Source: Stenomitos frigidus ULC18 (lineage in GTDB: Bacteria; Cyanobacteriota; Cyanobacteriia; Leptolyngbyales; Leptolyngbyaceae). From it: DNA of 64,000 bases. Location of the stretch: the NCBI RefSeq assembly GCF_003003795.1, contig NZ_PVWK01000159.1, positions 1-64,000 of the forward strand, in the 5' to 3' direction. Position 1 is the first letter of the stretch, and each line of letters begins with the position of its first letter. The position numbers were made by a program, and so were the translations under genes. Below, piece by piece: positions 54,216 through 64,000 of the stretch. The notes below the pieces were generated by a model that saw only the letters and a program-made list of their open reading frames with translations, was not told the origin of the DNA and made no database searches.

Positions 54216-55146
54216 GGATGAGAATAGCGCTAGCGTTTGCCACCCAAGTAGAAAAATCATATCGATCATGCCTTTACTACTGACGCAGCTAGTACATGGC
54301 ATGGTATTGGTGATGCGTGCGTTGAGTGAGAGTGGTAGACGCGTTTCTTAGCTATTCGTAAGACTGGTATGACAACCCGTTTTCAAAGACTACAACGACA
54401 GAATAATGATTCGCTATACTGTTGTACTGCCTTTACAAAATCTTTACTAGGGGGAGAGAAATTTATGAAGCACGGTTACTTTCAGAGTCGACGTTGATGT
54501 TCCAGAAAGGCCTTCAAGTAACACAGACGACCTGAACCCTTGCATTTTGGCGGGGAATGGGTCGGGTACAAGCAGCTCTCATGCTCCCAAAGTCTGTTAT
54601 AGCAAGACCCTAGATGAAAGCAAACACTGCGAAAATGCATCCCTGTGCTTAACGTATCGTCTCAGGAGGCGTGAATCCTTCAGCCAAATGACTGAATCAG
54701 GATTCCTCTCTCACCGTAGAGGCAAGGCCAAGGCATGAGTAAAAACAAGGCTTGTAAGGGGGTACAGTTCACAACCTGGAAAGCAAGCTTCAAGCAACAT
54801 GAGACGCAGGCCTCTCGCTTTTAGTCGGTTGGCGGCACCGTTCCTTCACGTAAGTGCTGATTCAACGATTCAGTTTCCAGCGATTCAAGCCAGAAGCGAT
54901 TCAAGCCAGAACTGAAAGTATACGGATCACGTGAATTATTTCTGCATTATTTATGCAGGATTTACCCGCGATGGTAGTAGATTTACGGGATTTTTACCGA
55001 TCGCTGGTTAGCATCTTGTGGAGGTGCAACCATTTCTAGCTTTAACCCTACACACATTCACTGCAGTCTCCCATTGTCCGAATGGGCAGTCCCCCCCTGC
55101 CCGAGTAGTTCAAGATCCTAAGTTCAATTTACTGAAGGAACCTTCT
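54216..55146. other. intergenic region with tandem repeat and unexplained structure
   Basis: It contains a perfect 16-bp tandem repeat AGCGATTCAAGCCAGA at 54879-54894 and 54895-54910. At 54465 there is a very short frame (MKHGYFQSRR) behind a GGGGGAGAG site. Several GC-rich paired words lie at 54650-54740 (GAATCCTTCAG / CTGAATCAGGATTC). I could not assign an RNA family. The end carries the leader of the PEP-CTERM gene. Confidence 0.4.
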
Positions 55147-55971
55147 ATGAAATTACTCGGCACTACCCAAACACTTTTTCTGGCTATTTTTCCGATCGTT
55201 GCAGCATCTGTAACAGCTTTACCCGGTCAAGCGGCAACCTTTGCACTGTCAGAAGCAAACGCCACGTTTTCTAACTTTAACCTTCTGCCTGATTCAACAT
55301 CGACCGATGCCGTCACTAGTGCTATTGCCCTTTCCTTTGGGGGCAATGTCGCTAGTGCTGCGGATGCCAACGCCCTTTTTCAGGTAAACCCACCTGAAGC
55401 ATCGAATCTTTCAGTGAGCCAGGCATCTGGTCAATTCGGTAGTTATTTAGGGCTGGCAGATAGTCAGGCCACAGTTATTGGTCGGTTTCTGGTCAGTGAT
55501 TTATTTCAGTTTATTTTCCAGACAAACTTAAACCTTATCGTTGCGGCTGATCATCCAACGCTTGAAAATGCGAACGCCTCTGGTGCCTTACTGGTTTCTG
55601 TGTTTAACAGCACTGATCCAAACAAGTTGAGCCCACTGGATTTCTTCACAATTGCTGGAAGGTTAGACACATCAAGCCAACTTGACTTCCTTCAAGGAGA
55701 ATCTAGCAATCACTTTACCTTTACACCAACACCGGTACTGAACACCTTGTTTGGGGAGACCACAAAATCCGCTCAAGCTTCAGCTGCAGGCTCCTATCAA
55801 CGAGTCTTTGAGACGCCGACCTACATTACCCTGGTAGAAAGTAAGGTCAATCATGCCGAAGTTCAAGCAGTGCCTGAACCATCAGGTTTTCTAGGGTTAT
55901 GTTTGGGTGGTGCGGTACTCGTCTATCGGTCACGCCGTCAAGCGGCCAAAAGGGATGGTATTAAAAATTGA
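55147..55971 (+). CDS. PEP-CTERM secreted protein
   Basis: The frame is open from 55018, but ATG 55147 has GAAGGAACC just before it and begins a typical signal peptide (MKLLGTTQTLFLAIFPIVAASVTALPGQAA). The protein then has 274 residues. The mature part is Ala/Ser/Asn-rich and beta-prone. The C-terminus has VPEPSGFLGLCLGGAVLVYRSRRQ, a PEP-CTERM sorting signal: the PEP box, a hydrophobic helix and basic residues. Exosortase would be encoded elsewhere. The function of the mature protein is unknown. Confidence 0.9.
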   Translation: MKLLGTTQTLFLAIFPIVAASVTALPGQAATFALSEANATFSNFNLLPDSTSTDAVTSAIALSFGGNVASAADANALFQVNPPEASNLSVSQASGQFGSYLGLADSQATVIGRFLVSDLFQFIFQTNLNLIVAADHPTLENANASGALLVSVFNSTDPNKLSPLDFFTIAGRLDTSSQLDFLQGESSNHFTFTPTPVLNTLFGETTKSAQASAAGSYQRVFETPTYITLVESKVNHAEVQAVPEPSGFLGLCLGGAVLVYRSRRQAAKRDGIKN

Positions 55972-56046: not shown

Positions 56047-56259
56047 TCAAGTTAGTTCGGTAGTTGCTCCAGCCGATGAGGCACTGCTGGAGCAACTACT
56101 GACGCTTCGCACCGTTCCTGCAGCAGAGAGCGTCACCACGATCGATTGTTGCGAGACTGCTTGGGCATTGTCGGAGGTGATGACTTCACTTCTGGCCTCT
56201 GCGATCGAGCGGCCATCGGCAGACACGATTCGTTGAAACAAAACCTTGTGCTGATTCAT
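56047..56259 (-). CDS. small Ser-rich-tailed protein
   Basis: The product has 70 residues. MNQHKVLFQRIVSADGRSIAEARSEVITS is a conserved-looking N-terminal half; the tail is Ser/Ala/Thr-rich (VSSCSSSASSAG). I know such proteins from cyanobacteria without a name. It overlaps the isomerase gene by 4 bases (ATGA at 56256-56259), so both are translated together. This points to a role in secretion or as cargo (inference). Confidence 0.65.
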   Translation of the reverse strand: MNQHKVLFQRIVSADGRSIAEARSEVITSDNAQAVSQQSIVVTLSAAGTVRSVSSCSSSASSAGATTELT

Positions 56260-57026
56260 AATCCAGTAGCCTCATCTTCAATAATCGAGGGGGGTTGATT
56301 GTGCAGAAAATGATTGAATTCGGCGTCCAGCCACTCCTTGAATAATTTCTGGAGAATCTCCTGATGAAGCTCAGGGGTCAACTCGGCAGAGAGAAATTCT
56401 TCAACCATCAACAGATGGTATCCCTGTTCTGTTTGAACCGGAGCAATGACTTTTTTAGGGTCAGCCCCAAAGACCAGTGCAGAGATATCTGGCTTCAGAC
56501 TCCAGCGATACAGTTCGCCCTCATAGCCACAGCCGTAGCGGCGTTTGGGGTCAACGTCATAGAGATGGGCGGCTTCGTAAAAACTAATCTCTTCTTCTTC
56601 AATTTCGTAAAAAATTTCTTGAGCAAGCTGCGCATAGGGAACAATGATTTGATAGACGAGTGCCCGCTCAAAATCCAGACGATTTTGAGCGAAGAAGCTT
56701 TCAACATTCTGGTTAAAGAGACATTCAGTCAGCTTTTGCAAGAGTAGCCGATCGCGAATGCCCGCTTCCCAGTCTTCCATTGTAACCAGTTGTTCCTCCA
56801 GCCATGCCAGAGTATCTGAAGCTTTTTGGAGGTGATATTCATGCCGCAAGCGATCGGCTTCCACTTGAATATCCTCAGGGGTAATGGTGATATTTCGGGC
56901 TTGAGCCGCCTCATCAACAATGTGCTGTCGAAGGATTTTGTGGCAGACATCCTTCAACAGTATTTCTTTTTTCAAAGAAAGTACTATCTCATCAATTTCA
57001 ATGACAATCCCTGATACATCAATCAT
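56256..57026 (-). CDS. PpiC/SurA-type peptidylprolyl isomerase
   Basis: ATG 57026 is preferred (a GTG at 57044 is open too), giving 256 residues. An N-terminal helical SurA-like region (CHKILRQHIVDEAAQARNITITPEDIQVEADRLRHEY, split by linkers) leads to a C-terminal rotamase domain (VYQIIVPYAQLAQEIFYEIEEEEISFYEAA, YGCGYEGELYRWSLKPDISALVFG, APVQTEQGYHLLMVEEFL). It has no signal peptide. Such cytoplasmic isomerases accompany HlyB/HlyD-type secretion genes in cyanobacteria. It is first in the pair with the Ser-rich gene. Confidence 0.85.
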   Translation of the reverse strand: MIDVSGIVIEIDEIVLSLKKEILLKDVCHKILRQHIVDEAAQARNITITPEDIQVEADRLRHEYHLQKASDTLAWLEEQLVTMEDWEAGIRDRLLLQKLTECLFNQNVESFFAQNRLDFERALVYQIIVPYAQLAQEIFYEIEEEEISFYEAAHLYDVDPKRRYGCGYEGELYRWSLKPDISALVFGADPKKVIAPVQTEQGYHLLMVEEFLSAELTPELHQEILQKLFKEWLDAEFNHFLHNQPPSIIEDEATGL

Positions 57027-57077
57027 CGGAAAAACGTACACCACGTCAATCGTTTTCAGTTGAACTAACTAACGATT

Positions 57078-57097
57078 GGACATTGTATAAAATGTCC
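57078..57097. promoter_or_regulatory. dyad upstream of the isomerase gene
   Basis: GGACAT-N8-ATGTCC, a perfect 6-bp dyad centred about 60 bp upstream of the isomerase ATG. It is a candidate regulatory site; the binding protein is unknown. Confidence 0.35.
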
Positions 57098-57530
57098 GTC
57101 ACTAGTAAAAGTAGATACAGAATGAAATTTTAACTCAAAAAGAATCTGAATATTGCTTCCAACGCGTCAACAAACAAATATTAACTTTTGGCGACCTGGT
57201 GCTTGAAAAGCGTCACACGAACGTTCAGAGTTTAAGCTCTTAATCAAGATGGTGCTTTGGGGCACTCATTTGCTAGGAACTAGGAAGGCCGCAAGCTTGA
57301 AAAGATCCGTCTAGTGATGCTTATAGCGCTATAGGTGAAGACATCAACTTGTGCACTGCTGACATAGTACAGCACTACAGACTAAGCATCAGAGAGTGTG
57401 ATGGAATGTCCCAGTAGTCATTTGATGCAAACAATGACGTAAGTACAAGAGTCTAGAGCACAACCAAACGTACTGTTGGATGCAGCTTCCTCATCATGAT
57501 CTACTCTTGAAAGATGTTTCTGCCATCTTG

Positions 57531-57543
57531 GCAAGTTTTCGAT
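57531..57543. promoter_or_regulatory. TGCCA-N3-TGGCA site, copy 1
   Basis: TGCCATCTTGGCA, in the divergent region between the isomerase gene and the DUF4347 gene, 318 bp before the latter's ATG. It has the same dyad and spacing as the three sites at 60332-60348, 60894-60906 and 61679-61691. The remainder of 57045-57860 shows no gene. Confidence 0.5.
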
Positions 57544-57860
57544 CTTAGGATGAGTTACTAGTGGTAATGAAGCTGCAGCATAAATTTCTTTAGTGCTTTT
57601 AGTAAATGGGTATGGCTATCTTCTCTGGAGAAAAAAGGTAAGCCCTGATTAATTGTCGCCGTCACAAGCCTTGGCAGGGATACATCGTTTTCTACCGAAA
57701 AGGTGACATTTACTTCAGAGAATATCTCAGATCAGGGCGTTACAAACTGAACGAAACACCCCCTTCTTGTGCTTTAAATTTTTCAAGCTTCTGACACTCA
57801 ACCCAAATAACTGCGCACATTGCATTCTCGACATGCGCTTTGATATTAGGAGTTAATCGA

Positions 57861-59738
57861 ATGGATCTATTACAATTGCCTACCACTTCTGGAACGGGTT
57901 TCCCCACGGCTGATTCACTACTTCCTTCTCTTTATAACGCTAGTGTGACGGTTCTATCTCCTCTTCAAGCTGCAGGAGCATCGCTTACGACCGCCAGCAG
58001 TCAAGCTGTTGCGGTGATTGATGCTGGAGGGCAAGGTTCTGTCTATAGCAGTAACGCTGCCAGTATCGTGACAACGGCACAACCCTCGACGATCGCTAAC
58101 CACTCGATCGCCTTCATCAGCGCTGATGTTTTAGATTCTGATATTTTGTTAAAGGGGCTGCAGCCTGGTGTAGAAATTCATGTTCTTCAGTCATCAGAGC
58201 TAAGCCAGGCGATTCAGCAAATTACGGCAACGCTAACAGGGCGAAGTGGCCTTACCAGTCTACAGATCTTCTCCCATGGCAGTGACGGTAATCTTCAGCT
58301 TGGTAACGGTAATCTAAATGCAAGCAATTTAGCGACGTATAGCAGCGAGATTCACTCTTGGGCTAGCGCTCTAGTTCCAGGTTCAGACATTTTGTTGTAC
58401 GGCTGTGACGTGGCTGCCAGTAATAGTGGCAAAGCGTTTGTGCAACAAATCAGTCAGCTAACCGGGGCTGATGTAGCGGCTTCTATTGATCTCACGGGGA
58501 ACACAGTGTTAGGCGGTAACTGGACGCTGGAATTCCATACGGGAGCGATAGAAACCCCTGATCTCCTCCAACCCTGGGCACAGGCGGCATACAGTCACAT
58601 CCTAGCGACATTTACTGTAACAAATACAAGCGATAGTGGCACTGGTTCCTTGCGGCAAGCGATTCAAGATGCGAATGCGGCGGCTGGTGATGACATCATC
58701 GTATTTAGTGGCGGTTCGTTTGGCGATCAAACACCAGATACTATTACTCTAACCAGCGGGCAACTACAAATCGGCGGCAATCTTACCATTGCTGGAACCG
58801 GCGCTGGTTTATTAAGTATTAGTGGCAACAATGCCAGCCGAGTGTTTCAAATTGATCCAACGATCAACGCAACCATTGCAGACGTGACGATTACAAATGG
58901 TCGAGCGAATGATGGTGCAGGAGTTTTCAATAACGGTGGCTCTGTTGCACTACTCCGAACAACGTTCAATAATAATGTTGCCACAAATGTAGGCGGCGGT
59001 ATTCTCAATGCTGGCGGCTTATTGGTCAATGGCGGCACTTTCAACAGTAATCGGGCTGCAGCAGGGGCAGGGCTCTACAATGCGGGTGGTTTGGAGGTGC
59101 GAAACAGCAACTTCAATACCAACCAGGCCAGCCTGAATGGCGGCGGCATCTACAATAACTCAGGCGCATCCCTCACCGTAGACAATGATTACCTCTCAAG
59201 AAATACTGCAGGAAACGATGGTGGTGGTATCTATAACAGAAGTGGTAGTACGTTAAGCCTGCTAACTAGTGTGATTGTGGATGGTACGGCGGGTCGCTTA
59301 GGCGGTGGTATTGCTAATTTTGGCACCATTACATCCATAGACAATTCTCTGATTCGAGGTAATCGTTCCACAGGCGGGAGTGGTGCGGCGGGTGGTGTTT
59401 TTAATGGCGGCACTGCCAACATCACAAACACCAGCATCCTCGGCAACACGGCTGCAGGGCCGGGTGGTGGTCTTTACAATAATGCTGGAGCGACCCTGAC
59501 CCTGAGAGCGAACAGTCTTGTCTCTGGCAACCGGGGAGCTAGAGGTGGCGGTATCTATAATGAAGGTTCTGCTACGGTTGGGGAAAGCAGCATTATTTCA
59601 AACCGCACGAATGCCCTCAACGGTGTTGGTCCTGATGTTTCTGGAGCCTTCATCAGCGAAGGCTTTAACACCATCTATAGCGCCTCCGGGAGTACTGGCT
59701 TTAGTCCCACACTCGGAGACACCATTATCTTTGGTTGA
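57861..59738 (+). CDS. DUF4347 protein with right-handed beta-helix repeats
   Basis: ATG 57861 (MDLLQLP) has TAGGAG 9 nt upstream, preferred to a start at 57840. The protein then has 625 residues. No signal peptide is present, as is usual for type I secretion cargo. DUF4347 (about 80-235): HVLQSSELSQAIQQI, LQIFSHGSDGNLQLGNG, ILLYGCDVA. Then about 240-620: beta-helix repeats of the GGGIYN/GAGLYNAGG type with FTVTNTSDSGTGSLRQAIQDAN at their start. It ends near a shared terminator at 59790. Confidence 0.88.
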   Translation: MDLLQLPTTSGTGFPTADSLLPSLYNASVTVLSPLQAAGASLTTASSQAVAVIDAGGQGSVYSSNAASIVTTAQPSTIANHSIAFISADVLDSDILLKGLQPGVEIHVLQSSELSQAIQQITATLTGRSGLTSLQIFSHGSDGNLQLGNGNLNASNLATYSSEIHSWASALVPGSDILLYGCDVAASNSGKAFVQQISQLTGADVAASIDLTGNTVLGGNWTLEFHTGAIETPDLLQPWAQAAYSHILATFTVTNTSDSGTGSLRQAIQDANAAAGDDIIVFSGGSFGDQTPDTITLTSGQLQIGGNLTIAGTGAGLLSISGNNASRVFQIDPTINATIADVTITNGRANDGAGVFNNGGSVALLRTTFNNNVATNVGGGILNAGGLLVNGGTFNSNRAAAGAGLYNAGGLEVRNSNFNTNQASLNGGGIYNNSGASLTVDNDYLSRNTAGNDGGGIYNRSGSTLSLLTSVIVDGTAGRLGGGIANFGTITSIDNSLIRGNRSTGGSGAAGGVFNGGTANITNTSILGNTAAGPGGGLYNNAGATLTLRANSLVSGNRGARGGGIYNEGSATVGESSIISNRTNALNGVGPDVSGAFISEGFNTIYSASGSTGFSPTLGDTIIFG

Positions 59739-59789
59739 ATAGCACTAAAATAACAATTCAAATTATCCCCAGTTCCCAAGAAAGTAAGA

Positions 59790-59829
59790 CTAAAAGCCCC
59801 GATTTCTCTAGAGAAGTCGGGGCTTTTAG
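59790..59829. terminator. bidirectional terminator between convergent genes
   Basis: A 20-bp stem, CTAAAAGCCCCGATTTCTCT against its inverse with one mismatch, and T-rich sequence on both sides. Confidence 0.9.
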
Positions 59830-59860
59830 TTTAAGTAGTTTAAGCAAAGAAGGGACAAAA

Positions 59861-60250
59861 TTACCAAGTTCGATAGGTGGAGTACGTAACAGATGAGTTG
59901 ATGGTAGTTGAGTTGCCATTAAAGCTGGTGTTATTTGAAGAGCCATAGAAGCCTACACCTGCGTAAGCGTAAGGGCTAATGCCAAGGGCTCTGCCAGATG
60001 CAGTGGCATTAGACGTGGTGTAGTAAGGGTATAGGGAGGTTGTTGCCAACGTATTGGTCGTGCCAAACGTTTGCTGCCCAGAGGCCGAAGCAAGGACACC
60101 AGCAGCGGCATAACCAGTCCCGGCAGTGGTATAACCGGTCACGAAGGCGCTGGCAGCAGCCCCTGTGATGAAGCATTCTTCTGGTAATGCTTCACCATAT
60201 TCTGAGGACTCAGTCGTCGCTTCTAAATAATCTAGATCAGTGATTAGCAT
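59861..60250 (-). CDS. small secreted-type protein with DLDYLE leader box (3)
   Basis: The protein has 129 residues. It begins MLITDLDYLEATTESSEYGE. The leader has a possible Gly-Ala processing point (EECFITGAAAS, residues about 25-35). The rest is Gly/Ala/Ser/Thr/Tyr/Asn-rich with repeated TTS/GY-type words and no Lys after the leader. RBS GGAGCGAC precedes ATG. The operator at 60332-60348 lies about 90 bp upstream. The function is unknown. It is likely cargo of the nearby HlyD export system (inference). Confidence 0.75.
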   Translation of the reverse strand: MLITDLDYLEATTESSEYGEALPEECFITGAAASAFVTGYTTAGTGYAAAGVLASASGQQTFGTTNTLATTSLYPYYTTSNATASGRALGISPYAYAGVGFYGSSNNTSFNGNSTTINSSVTYSTYRTW

Positions 60251-60331
60251 TGTCGCTCCTTAATCAAATCCGTACTAACACAAAATCAACATATTGCTAT
60301 CTCCGAGCATAGGGAGATTAATCGATTAGGA

Positions 60332-60348
60332 GTTGCCATTATGGCAAC
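60332..60348. promoter_or_regulatory. TGCCA-N3-TGGCA site, copy 2
   Basis: GTTGCCAT-T-ATGGCAAC, a perfect 17-bp palindrome, about 90 bp upstream of the 59861-60250 gene. It is part of the four-site family. Confidence 0.6.
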
Positions 60349-60405
60349 CTTTATTCAAGGTTTAACGAAAACACTCGAGCTAATAGCTAAAATTTTTTAC
60401 TATAA

Positions 60406-60438
60406 AACCTGCCTAATTCGAAAAGAGTTAGGCAGGTT
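60406..60438 (-). terminator. terminator of the 60509 gene
   Basis: AACCTGCCTAA / TTAGGCAGGTT, an 11-bp perfect stem with an 11-nt loop. On the minus strand it is followed by TTATAGTAAAAAATTTT. Confidence 0.85.
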
Positions 60439-60508
60439 CAAGATTCCTAAACATTATTTGATTTAGATTCTAAACAGTAAGCTTAGATTCTAAACCGAAT
60501 AACTAACC

Positions 60509-60808
60509 TTAGTGGAAGACAGAGTTAATGACAGCAACAGATGTGCTAGCCGAGAAAGAGCCACCACCAAAGTCAGCTACAGCAAGGGTGTCAGCTTTGG
60601 TGAAGGAGTAGGTGGGGTAGTAGGTGTAGTTGTTGGCAACACCCTTAGCACCAGCAGCAGCGCTGTTGCTATAGGTCTTGGGGCTATTGACGCTGGTGTA
60701 GAAGCTGTTGTTGGTGTTGAAGTTAATCGAAACCGTGTCAGTTTCGTTGAACCCACCTTCAATGCTAGCATCAACAATTTCAAGATAATTCAGGTCAGAA
60801 ATAATCAT
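60509..60808 (-). CDS. small secreted-type protein with DLNYLE leader and GG site (2)
   Basis: From ATG 60808 (MIISDLNYLEIVDASIEGG; RBS ACGGAGAAA) the product has 99 residues. The leader ends in a Gly-Gly pair (residues 18-19) of the kind cut by C39-type peptidase exporters. The mature part is Asn/Ser/Thr/Tyr/Phe-rich (DTVSINFNTNN, YTYYPTYSFTKADTLAVADFGGG). A start six codons upstream is less likely. Own terminator at 60406 and operator at 60894. Confidence 0.75.
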   Translation of the reverse strand: MIISDLNYLEIVDASIEGGFNETDTVSINFNTNNSFYTSVNSPKTYSNSAAAGAKGVANNYTYYPTYSFTKADTLAVADFGGGSFSASTSVAVINSVFH

Positions 60809-60893
60809 TGTTTTTCTCCGTGTCAATTATTGCTTTGCTCAACTCTCAATTTGAGTTGTTATTAATAAGATAGAATATCTAATTTTTATAGGT

Positions 60894-60906
60894 TGCCATT
60901 TTGGCA
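60894..60906. promoter_or_regulatory. TGCCA-N3-TGGCA site, copy 3
   Basis: TGCCATTTTGGCA, about 92 bp upstream of the 60509-60808 gene. It is part of the four-site family. The 60827-61122 spacer around it also holds a worn piece of a dispersed repeat (GGTTGGGTTAAGG...GTGAAACCCG...TGGGTTTCG at about 60997-61060) and no gene. Confidence 0.6.
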
Positions 60907-61122
60907 GAATTTGAAAGTTAAATTGCCGATGATAATCGATTGAAATTAATACGAAGTTAACTACTTTTCGTTTGTTTAATGCTGACTCTTCAGACGCAGG
61001 TTGGGTTAAGGGGTGAAACCCGATATTTGCATGGGTTTCGCTATCGCTAGCTCATCCTACGAATAACGGTGCCTCCCTACTTAATACTGATTTTTTGGCA
61101 AAGATAAAGGGTGAGAACAGCA

Positions 61123-61157
61123 GACTATTAATCAGACTTAAAGTCTGATTAATAGTC
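61123..61157 (-). terminator. 35-bp perfect palindrome downstream of the 61288 gene
   Basis: Two 17-bp arms (GACTATTAATCAGACTT and inverse) about a single central A. It is probably an mRNA-end hairpin of the gene at 61288-61623. Confidence 0.65.
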
Positions 61158-61185
61158 TCATTTCAACCAATCTTTAGACAGATTA

Positions 61186-61219
61186 AACCGTCTAGATTAA
61201 CTAAATAAGCTAGACGGTT
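61186..61219 (-). terminator. second hairpin, downstream of the 61288 gene
   Basis: AACCGTCTAG (61186-61195) and CTAGACGGTT (61210-61219) are perfect inverses with a 14-nt loop. It lies in tandem with the 61123 palindrome. Confidence 0.6.
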
Positions 61220-61287
61220 CTCGCTCATAATCGATGACGCTCTTATGAGGAGGGCACAGTTATTTATAAGATGATTAAAAATGACGT

Positions 61288-61623
61288 TCAGCTACTCAAG
61301 ACTGACGATGATGAACTGAGAAAGACAGAAACCTGATCACCGCCCTGTATGCCCTGGCCTGCAAACGAAGTGAATGAGGTTTTAATTCTACCATCAGGAC
61401 TTTGGGCACTATTTGAAGTAATTGTCCCCGGAAGATTCTGAACTGAGACAGTAAACGGTAGTGCAACTGGGAATGAAGCACGATAAATTTCCTGCTCGTA
61501 ATTTCTAATCGACAAGATGCGATTAGCCAGGTCGATCGAAAAAACGCCAAAGGAACTCTCTCGACCTTTTAAGGTGTGTAGTTTATCGAGGGTTTCTAGA
61601 TGTTCTAAGTTACGAAGTAACAT
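61288..61623 (-). CDS. small protein with NLEHLE leader box (1)
   Basis: The protein has 111 residues. It starts MLLRNLEHLETLDKLHTLKGRESSFGVFSIDL, a divergent version of the DLNYLE box. The middle looks like a beta domain (RNYEQEIYRASFPVALPFTV), and the tail is Ser-rich (VSVFLSSSSSVLSS). RBS GTGGAGAGC precedes ATG. The operator lies about 60 bp upstream. No Gly-Gly pair is seen in the leader, so it may be only distantly related to the other two. Confidence 0.65.
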   Translation of the reverse strand: MLLRNLEHLETLDKLHTLKGRESSFGVFSIDLANRILSIRNYEQEIYRASFPVALPFTVSVQNLPGTITSNSAQSPDGRIKTSFTSFAGQGIQGGDQVSVFLSSSSSVLSS

Positions 61624-61678
61624 CGCAAGCTCTCCACATTACTAACTAACAACGGTAGCAGAAGCAGCTATTACAGCC

Positions 61679-61691
61679 TGCCAAAACGGCA
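61679..61691. promoter_or_regulatory. TGCCA-N3-CGGCA site, copy 4
   Basis: TGCCAAAACGGCA, the same dyad with one arm changed by one base, about 60 bp upstream of the 61288-61623 gene. Confidence 0.5.
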
Positions 61692-61810
61692 GTTTTATAG
61701 TTCCTTTTTGGCTTGTGTTCAAGCGCTAGAGGCGATCGCTATGCAATATTCTGTAGCAACTAAGGCAACCGTCCTTCGGAGCATGAGCATGAGCATGGGG
61801 AAGGCTAGAT

Positions 61811-62278
61811 TTACCATTCACGTGGCAATACATTGATCTGCTCTTGATAACCCTTCAAAGAAACTTTGAAGGGCAAGTGCCCACCCAGCTTATAATCTAA
61901 CCATTGTGTCAAGCCACCTAGTCCCCCCGCTCGCATTTGTCCGGCTTGGCTACCAATAGCTTCGACATAATTCAAATCGTTAATCTTGCTTGCGCTTTGT
62001 TGAGGCAATAAGCGATTTGCATGGATGACTGGGCTATTGGCATCTGTGCTCATACCGACTTGTTTAGAGCGATGCCTGGTCTGGCAGTTATCTTTAGTCA
62101 ACCGATTGTAGGTGCGGTAGGGAATGTAATGGAGGGGGTTATAGCCAGCAAACCGTAGGATGAGCACACATGCCCAGGAATACTTTCCTTCCAGTATGGC
62201 TTCTACGATTTGATTAAATTGTTCGGGTGTCATGACCCTGTCTAGCTTTGGGTTTGAGAAAGGGATTTGCTGATTCAT
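61811..62278 (-). CDS. HetP-family protein with DLNYVE box in its tail
   Basis: From ATG 62278 ([20 protein letters not shown]) the protein has 155 residues; an upstream start at 62341 adds 21 residues. The HetP core at about 15-65 is clear: [42 protein letters not shown]. HetP-like proteins affect heterocyst commitment in Nostoc, but relatives exist elsewhere. The tail contains [22 protein letters not shown], the box seen in the neighbouring small proteins, with a Gly pair 12 residues on. It is located between HlyD and the small genes. Confidence 0.85.
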
Positions 62279-62460
62279 CTCTATATGCTTTTTAGAATGA
62301 AAGGACTGTACTTTACAGCTGTTGTCAAATGGTTCAGCCACTGTGCGTTCGCGGAGCGAGTGCTTGCACTTACATCTTGTTCGCGGGTGTGAGCGTCTCG
62401 TTCACAGTAGGTTAATATGACTTATTCAAACGAAAATCGCTGTAAGTGATTTGATGGCTT

Positions 62461-64000
62461 CTACAAGTTGATGCCGCCTTTTTGTAGCTTGCGGATAGGG
62501 TCCAGAAGGATGTCGATGATATGCCGATCGCGAATGACGATTTCGGCGGTCGCGGTTTGCCCAGGCTTGAACTTAATCATTTGCTGTGGGGTGCTGACGT
62601 AGTCCCGATCCAGAGCGACTTCAATACGGTATACCTCCCCTAGATTCTTGTCGGACTTTGAATCGGGGGAGGTTGAAACCACCCGACCAGAAATAATGCC
62701 GTAGTCTTGGTAGGGATAGGCATCAACTTTCACTTGCACAGACATGCCTGGTTTCACAAAACCAGCTTCCTGGTTCGGTAGGCTTGCTTGCAGAACCAGA
62801 GGAGCATGCTGCGGCCCAATCTCTGCAATGGTTTGACCGATCTGCACGACTTCGCCAGTACGTTTGATATTCAGGGATGAGACAATGCCATCGACTGGAG
62901 CATAGAAGGAATATTGCTTGAGCCTAGATTGGGCACTACTTAAAGATGTCTGAGTATCAGCAATTTTGGTGTTCAGATCGGTGATTTGAGCTTCTAGCTC
63001 GTGGCCTTGCTGTTGGCTTGCGAGTTGATCCTTACGCCCTTCAGCGTGTTTTTGCGTGAGTCCTGCTTGAAGTCGTTCTGCTTCAGCAAGGTTCTGCTGG
63101 AGATCGCCACGGCTTTTGATGGTGGTGCTTTGGCGATCGCGCAGGCTTTGCTCCACTTCAAACAATTGCTCCCTAGAGATTGCTCCTGCTGTCACCATGG
63201 GACCGAAACGCTGTAGGCGTTCTTGATACTCAACAATATCCTGTTGATATTGCGTGACTAGCTCGGAAGCAGTCTTCGCGTTTGCGTTTGCTTGGGCGAT
63301 CGAGACCTCCTGCGCCTGAATGTTGGCGGCGGCAATAGCAGCACGAGTCTTTGCTTCCAGGCGAATTTTTTCAAGCAGAGTCTGCTTTTGGGATACTTCT
63401 ACTCGATATCCTGCCAGTACTTGCTCTAGACGTTCTACATCATTGGCAGCAATTTGACCGTCCAGAGCAACCAATAGCTGTCCAGCTTTGACGTTCTGCC
63501 CTTCATTGACAGCTAGCTGCGTGACTTTGCCTTCTATAAGGGGGTTAATTTTATAGGCTTCGCCCTGGGGTACCAATTTCCCGCGCGCGTGCCCCACTTC
63601 GTTCATTTGCCCCAACCAGGCCCAAGCGCCAAAGGCCAGACAGAACACCACTCCCCCTAGAATGAAGCGCTGAGGAAGAGATGAAGGCGGCTGATCCAAC
63701 ACCGTTTGGAGAGTGGAAGACCAGTTTACGGGAGGAGTCGTCGCTACAGTTGAATGAACGGCTGAAGGAACCGCAGGAGGATGTTGTGTTTCAACACTAG
63801 TGTTTTCTGATACTGAATTGGGGGCATTGGCTGTGCCACCATAAATCCGAGCTCCAATTGATGAATCAAGTGTTTCAAGGAATGGTTTATCTGGAGAGAG
63901 CCTGTTCTGGTTAACAACTGGCTGTAAATCATTAAGGGAGAATGGTAAGGAATGGCTCTGCTGATTTACTGAATTTAAGTGACCTTTGGGAGTAGAACGA
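62461..64000 (-). CDS. HlyD-family type I secretion adaptor, 5' end outside window
   Basis: Periplasmic adaptor that links an ABC exporter to TolC. The recognised part has RFILGGVVFCLAFGAWAWLG (membrane helix), the first lipoyl half (IEGKVTQLAVNEGQNVKAGQLLVALD), a coiled coil of about 150 residues, the second half (YSFYAPVDGIVSSLNIKRTGEVVQIGQTI), and the C-terminal barrel. The frame stays open from 63702 to the window end with no ATG, reading a Pro/Ser/Thr-rich cytoplasmic extension (LNDLQPVVNQNRLSPDKPFLETLDS), so the gene is incomplete here. The ABC transporter probably lies further upstream. Confidence 0.9.
   Translation of the reverse strand, partial: RSTPKGHLNSVNQQSHSLPFSLNDLQPVVNQNRLSPDKPFLETLDSSIGARIYGGTANAPNSVSENTSVETQHPPAVPSAVHSTVATTPPVNWSSTLQTVLDQPPSSLPQRFILGGVVFCLAFGAWAWLGQMNEVGHARGKLVPQGEAYKINPLIEGKVTQLAVNEGQNVKAGQLLVALDGQIAANDVERLEQVLAGYRVEVSQKQTLLEKIRLEAKTRAAIAAANIQAQEVSIAQANANAKTASELVTQYQQDIVEYQERLQRFGPMVTAGAISREQLFEVEQSLRDRQSTTIKSRGDLQQNLAEAERLQAGLTQKHAEGRKDQLASQQQGHELEAQITDLNTKIADTQTSLSSAQSRLKQYSFYAPVDGIVSSLNIKRTGEVVQIGQTIAEIGPQHAPLVLQASLPNQEAGFVKPGMSVQVKVDAYPYQDYGIISGRVVSTSPDSKSDKNLGEVYRIEVALDRDYVSTPQQMIKFKPGQTATAEIVIRDRHIIDILLDPIRKLQKGGINL

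Follow-up and report, generated by a model that had tools for sequence, protein, structure and literature searches.

A HetC-related exporter locus in Stenomitos frigidus in which HetP and a family of small proteins share a leader-like box

The DNA analysed here (the window) comprises positions 1-64000 of contig C143 from the 6.98-Mb (~7 Mb) genome of Stenomitos frigidus ULC18, and its right end carries a locus that brings together secretion genes, a gene for a HetP-family protein and genes for small proteins with leader-like boxes. Immediately to the right of the window, at contig positions 64420-67671 on the minus strand, is a gene predicted to encode a 1083-aa ATP-binding cassette (ABC) exporter with cNMP, C39 peptidase, ABC membrane and ATPase domains. 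The C39, ABC membrane and ATPase domains lie in a single chain and both the catalytic Cys and the catalytic His are present, so that this is an intact peptidase-containing ABC exporter. The gene adjoins, on the same strand, one encoding a HlyD-family periplasmic adaptor (62461-64053, of which 62461..64000 falls in the window; TIGR01843, 229 bits), followed by one encoding the HetP-family protein (61811-62341, minus strand; NF037966, 118.8 bits against a cut-off of 45). From right to left, the order on the minus strand is exporter, HlyD, HetP, three small genes (61288-61623, 60509-60808 and 59861-60250), a PpiC-type isomerase and a 70-aa protein. An initial annotation of this DNA had placed the HlyD, HetP-like, DUF4347 and PpiC-like genes and the three small genes here, and open reading frames and domain matches confirmed all of them. 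It had also proposed that a C39-type ABC transporter be sought to the right of position 64000, which is where the exporter was found.

The small protein encoded at 60509-60808 has the canonical leader MIISDLNYLEIVDASIEGG with a SIEGG site, and its relatives in two other loci are 67% (L181) and 58% (L057) identical to it. The product of 59861-60250 has the leader MLITDLDYLE without a canonical site and reads G-E at the usual spacing, and that of 61288-61623 has a divergent box, LLRNLEHLE, with G-R at the site. The shared N-terminal box described in the initial annotation is clear in the genes starting at 60808 and 60250, but the third is missed by our leader profile. Likewise, SIEGG is a canonical leader end, but the Gly-Ala that had been suggested for the gene starting at 60250 sits 19 residues past the box, compared with mostly 6-12 in the family.

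These boxes are not there by chance. Three small ATG-started open reading frames with an N-terminal box occur in the 64 kb, all of them at 59.0-62.5 kb, whereas 200 Markov simulations gave a mean of 0.025. A leader profile built from the family had just two matches at E<=10 in the whole 7-Mb genome, the small genes that start at 60808 and 60250; since the profile was built from HetP loci and its training set included these two genes, matches there are expected and the absence of matches elsewhere is the informative part. Among 292 sampled cyanobacterial genomes, 51 of which contain HetP, leader matches (E<=1e-5) were present in 27, all of them HetP genomes (27/51 versus 0/241 of the others). 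In non-heterocystous genomes, 34 of the 36 leader matches lie within ~10 kb of HetP. With a strict definition of the box, we counted 37 open reading frames in 356 kb of HetP loci outside the heterocystous family (f7). The f7 loci (1161 kb) contain none, nor do the 67 kb that cover the right flank of the exporter and three additional C39 exporters of this genome. The other C39 exporters of this genome were rejected as partners on the basis of these three; a further one, on contig C125, was not scanned in this way. An exporter thus stands beside HlyD and the box genes are not placed at random, so that both conditions given in the initial annotation as refuting its reading were examined and neither was borne out.

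In non-heterocystous relatives the same cluster holds one to seven box genes with GG, GA or GS sites. Among the 75 distinct small proteins that we collected, 71 have a G[GAS] site, and leaders are mostly 19-26 residues long with a mean charge of -3. A hydrophobic residue at position -4 is a feature of known C39 substrates, and this position is hydrophobic in 96% of the cargo leaders and 98% of the leaders in HetP. The mature parts have a high content of Ser, Ala, Thr, Gly, Tyr and Asn and contain 0.1% Cys. Identical residues two positions apart are in large excess (z 17.4) with no excess at lag 3, a pattern as in beta strands. The Gly-, Ser-, Thr-, Asn- and Tyr-rich composition unlike that of bacteriocins, which had been described for the window proteins, thus holds across the family, and judged by their sequences the mature parts appear to resemble matrix proteins (cf. 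EbfG) more closely than bacteriocins. The cargo proteins tested fall outside all Pfam and NCBIfam families. A second leader form, approximately MSQLxIxDLxFCE, occurs among the small proteins beside the MIISDLNYLE type in L046, L048, L052, L053, L178 and L192.

A fourth box, KINDLNYVE, is located in the C-terminal part of the window HetP, ~40 residues past the conserved domain, and is followed by 11 residues and then Gly-Gly (M-R-A-G-G). This can be compared with the motif KIxDLxYLEx10GG, which is canonical in most relatives. In two alignments, with 13 and 32 HetP proteins, the linker is freely variable and the box and Gly-Gly are near-invariant. Several non-heterocystous relatives have 6-12 residues after the Gly-Gly, often aromatic ones such as FRYFWW or AKNWWYF. 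AlphaFold predicted the N-terminal helical domain of HetP with confidence and the box and tail with low confidence, and a Foldseek search of this model against the PDB gave no significant match. The presence of the tag on HetP itself had been missed by the initial annotation, as had the relation of the exporter to HetC and the earlier description of this cluster type in 2011 (PMC3140520).

We compared 60 HetP loci from f7, a family taken as heterocystous from its several HetP copies and named members, with 20 HetP loci from other families. In the latter, HlyD is nearby in 20/20, PpiC in 19/20 and the exporter in 18/20; the two loci without an exporter are cut by contig ends. In f7, about 38 HetP copies have no box, and a cNMP-type exporter is found beside just one of these (L073). 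Tagged HetP travels with the exporter, and dispersed copies are without the tag.

The exporter itself is related to HetC. In a FastTree phylogeny, HetC of heterocystous cyanobacteria and the exporters from loci like this one form a single clade (support 99). A different type of C39 exporter, also encoded close to hetP in Nostocales, branches outside this clade; together with HlyD and PpiC, it is located within 5 kb of the hetP gene in many members of the order (L103, L113, L118, L137, L155 and others). We examined 109 HetP proteins that have a box: 66 of the 70 with an intact adjacent exporter retain Gly-Gly (or Gly-Ala), versus 17 of the 39 without one. On a tree of the HetP domain, a model in which Gly-Gly loss depends on the state of the exporter fitted much better than independence (likelihood ratio 47.9, p 4.5e-12; 53.9 with six uncertain loci left out), with the caveats that the tree comes from a short protein, that adjacency is a proxy for presence in the genome and that some breaks are possibly assembly errors. 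In L113, the C39 residues are replaced by Ser and Asp and HetP reads GSG. Among HetP proteins of the heterocystous type, the stretch that follows the box measures 7-22 residues in 16 of the 37 lacking HetC and at least 30 residues in all those that have it. Nodularia spumigena has been reported to lack hetC, which agrees with our locus L083. Several heterocystous lineages (L061, L065, L070, L075, L079, L106 and others) have no recognisable HetC beside HetP, and there the box is kept and Gly-Gly is lost. The window genome, which is rated 100% complete, has no nifH above cut-off, and therefore HetP works here outside nitrogen fixation.

The remaining genes of the locus lie to the left of the small genes. 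The PpiC-type (SurA-like) isomerase (56256-57044, minus strand) matches PF00639 Rotamase with 30.1 bits and, weakly, TIGR04500. The start of the gene for the 70-aa protein (56047-56259, minus strand) overlaps the PpiC stop codon; this protein has a Ser-rich tail and no box and is conserved in related loci. It contains the motif [IV]S.DGK..AEAKS, and box-free relatives occur in at least 12 related loci, often straight after PpiC. A DUF4347 gene (57840-59738; 185 bits) is located between the small genes and PpiC on the strand opposite to the rest of the locus. We rejected it as part of the system since none of 160 related loci has a homologue, and it is best seen as a local insertion. Farther left, a PEP-CTERM protein (55018-55971, plus strand) has relatives that are 25-43% identical in ~17 HetP-exporter loci; this neighbour is conserved and may be a member of the system.

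Taken together, the best explanation, and one that we somewhat favour, is that the locus encodes a peptidase-type ABC secretion system that is the non-heterocystous counterpart of hetC-hetP. We infer from the sequences how recognition, cleavage and export could proceed. The C39 domain of the exporter would recognise the box I-x-D-L-x-[YH]-[LIV]-E together with the hydrophobic residue at -4 and would cut after Gly-Gly (or Gly-Ala, Gly-Ser). The mature part would then leave through HlyD and an outer-membrane channel encoded elsewhere, and the PpiC-like protein probably helps in folding or maturation. The main products would be the small, Cys-poor proteins, whose sequence alternates in the manner of beta strands and which most likely serve as material of the cell surface or biofilm matrix. 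That the small proteins are exported, as the initial annotation proposed, is very probable given the adjacent exporter, the tag and the family, although only one of the three window leaders is canonical; a role for them in the matrix or at the cell surface is suggested more tentatively, at slightly less than an even chance. HetP, with the same signal behind its regulatory domain, would probably be cut too, yielding a cytoplasmic HetP domain and a short released C-terminal peptide. The tag on HetP may mark it as a substrate of HetC-type exporters because the box is shared with the small proteins, the exporter is related to HetC and Gly-Gly is lost along with HetC. We regard cutting of HetP by such exporters as evenly balanced, and our leading hypothesis is that HetP is the substrate of HetC. 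The fuller proposal, that HetP is split into a cytoplasmic regulator and an exported peptide and that an ancestral locus for secretion of surface proteins was later co-opted for heterocysts, is possible and is put forward with some reserve. It has been reported that over-expression of hetP compensates for a hetC with its peptidase deleted, and the working model for HetC published in 2024 matches a cut-and-export view of HetP (PMC10986499, PMC4133259).

Several observations weigh against these proposals. Just one leader in the window (60808) has a canonical GG, and the case at the level of the family is stronger than that for the individual window genes. The AlphaFold model of the cargo was uninformative (pLDDT, the predicted local distance difference test, was 46) and was not used. 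The non-heterocystous loci L055 and L058, as well as L073, have the exporter and lack the box in HetP. Seventeen HetP proteins retain Gly-Gly without an intact adjacent HetC, and a strict independent-pairs test on the HetP tree gave ~3 to 0, which is underpowered and not significant. Also, HetP with a C-terminal GFP is functional and cytoplasmic in Anabaena (PMC10986499, PMC4133259), and therefore cutting is not essential for HetP activity. This last result would suit a box that serves in docking or sensing only, where HetP binds the C39 domain and either reports its occupancy or competes with cargo and is neither cut nor exported. Such a role would also be in keeping with the several HetP proteins that keep the box minus Gly-Gly where HetC is gone, and with the M-R-A-G-G site of the window HetP. 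However, a mere dock would not need Gly-Gly, yet these residues are kept beside intact exporters and lost after HetC is lost; in addition, the -4 position obeys the C39 rule and the part after the box is shorter in many lineages without HetC. We therefore consider docking alone unlikely.

The published name of such clusters implies that the small proteins are bacteriocins (PMC3140520), and C39 exporters with HlyD do secrete microcins. We think this quite improbable for the present family, as the mature parts are long, alternating, repetitive and almost free of Cys, the last of which speaks against lanthionine or disulphide types. Moreover, we recognised no gene for a modification enzyme in that portion of the locus that lies inside the window, and the sole characterised cyanobacterial parallel, EbfG, acts in biofilm. 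Cleavage of HetP by another protease, such as the M16 peptidase that Wang et al. proposed for the HetP motif (PMC3140520), is more improbable still. An M16 protease of the locus was rejected as the cutter since contig C143 carries no M16 gene, several being present elsewhere in the genome. Two further points argue against it: the box also occurs in small proteins encoded in a cluster with a C39 exporter, and Gly-Gly is lost along with HetC.

If HetP is cut by its exporter, a regulator of cell fate and an exported signal would be linked through one cut. Functional heterocysts require HetC, which work from 2024 established as a peptidase-type exporter; the authors of that work found no gene with a leader near hetC (PMC10986499, PMC4133259). 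Our comparison directs attention to the adjacent gene hetP and to a specific site in it that could be mutated. In addition, it delineates a widespread leader family of small, probably secreted proteins of non-heterocystous cyanobacteria outside Pfam and NCBIfam, and suggests a secretion locus as the place of origin of a developmental regulator. Relative to the open-licence literature, what is new is that HetP has a tag in common with small proteins that make up a defined family, that Gly-Gly disappears together with HetC, that this locus is linked to HetC and that HetP is the prime candidate for the HetC substrate.

Three known systems resemble the locus. PteB and EbfG1-4 of Synechococcus elongatus likewise combine a C39 exporter with several small GG/GA-leader proteins; EbfG secretion requires the Cys in the C39 domain of PteB, and EbfG1-3 assemble into amyloid in the biofilm matrix (PMC4997328, PMC9981879). 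This likeness is one of leader type and gene setting; the EbfG mature parts were reported to have no homologues in other cyanobacteria, and HetP was not reported there. Wang, Fewer and Sivonen described clusters of this type in 2011, together with the KIxDLxYLEx10GG motif of HetP, as those of bacteriocin precursors (PMC3140520), and both were described again in 2015. Their groups I and II share with our locus a long C39 exporter with a nucleotide-binding domain, HlyD, a SurA-like rotamase and short precursors nearby, as well as HetP, whose tail in the window comes close to the published motif. Here, by contrast, the small proteins make up a defined family whose leaders have the HetP box, the bacteriocin reading is doubtful and there is no M16 peptidase. 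An M16 peptidase in the cluster is a trait noted for group II (PMC3140520); as the contig has none, the locus is closer to a group I cluster that includes a HetP gene than to group II. The third system is HetC-HetP of Nostoc/Anabaena PCC 7120 (PMC10986499, PMC4133259). The window locus differs from it in having HlyD, PpiC and cargo genes, which are mostly missing near heterocystous hetC, and in belonging to a genome without nifH. The two are alike in that the exporter falls in the HetC clade, the regulator belongs to the HetP family and heterocystous HetP carries the same box and Gly-Gly.

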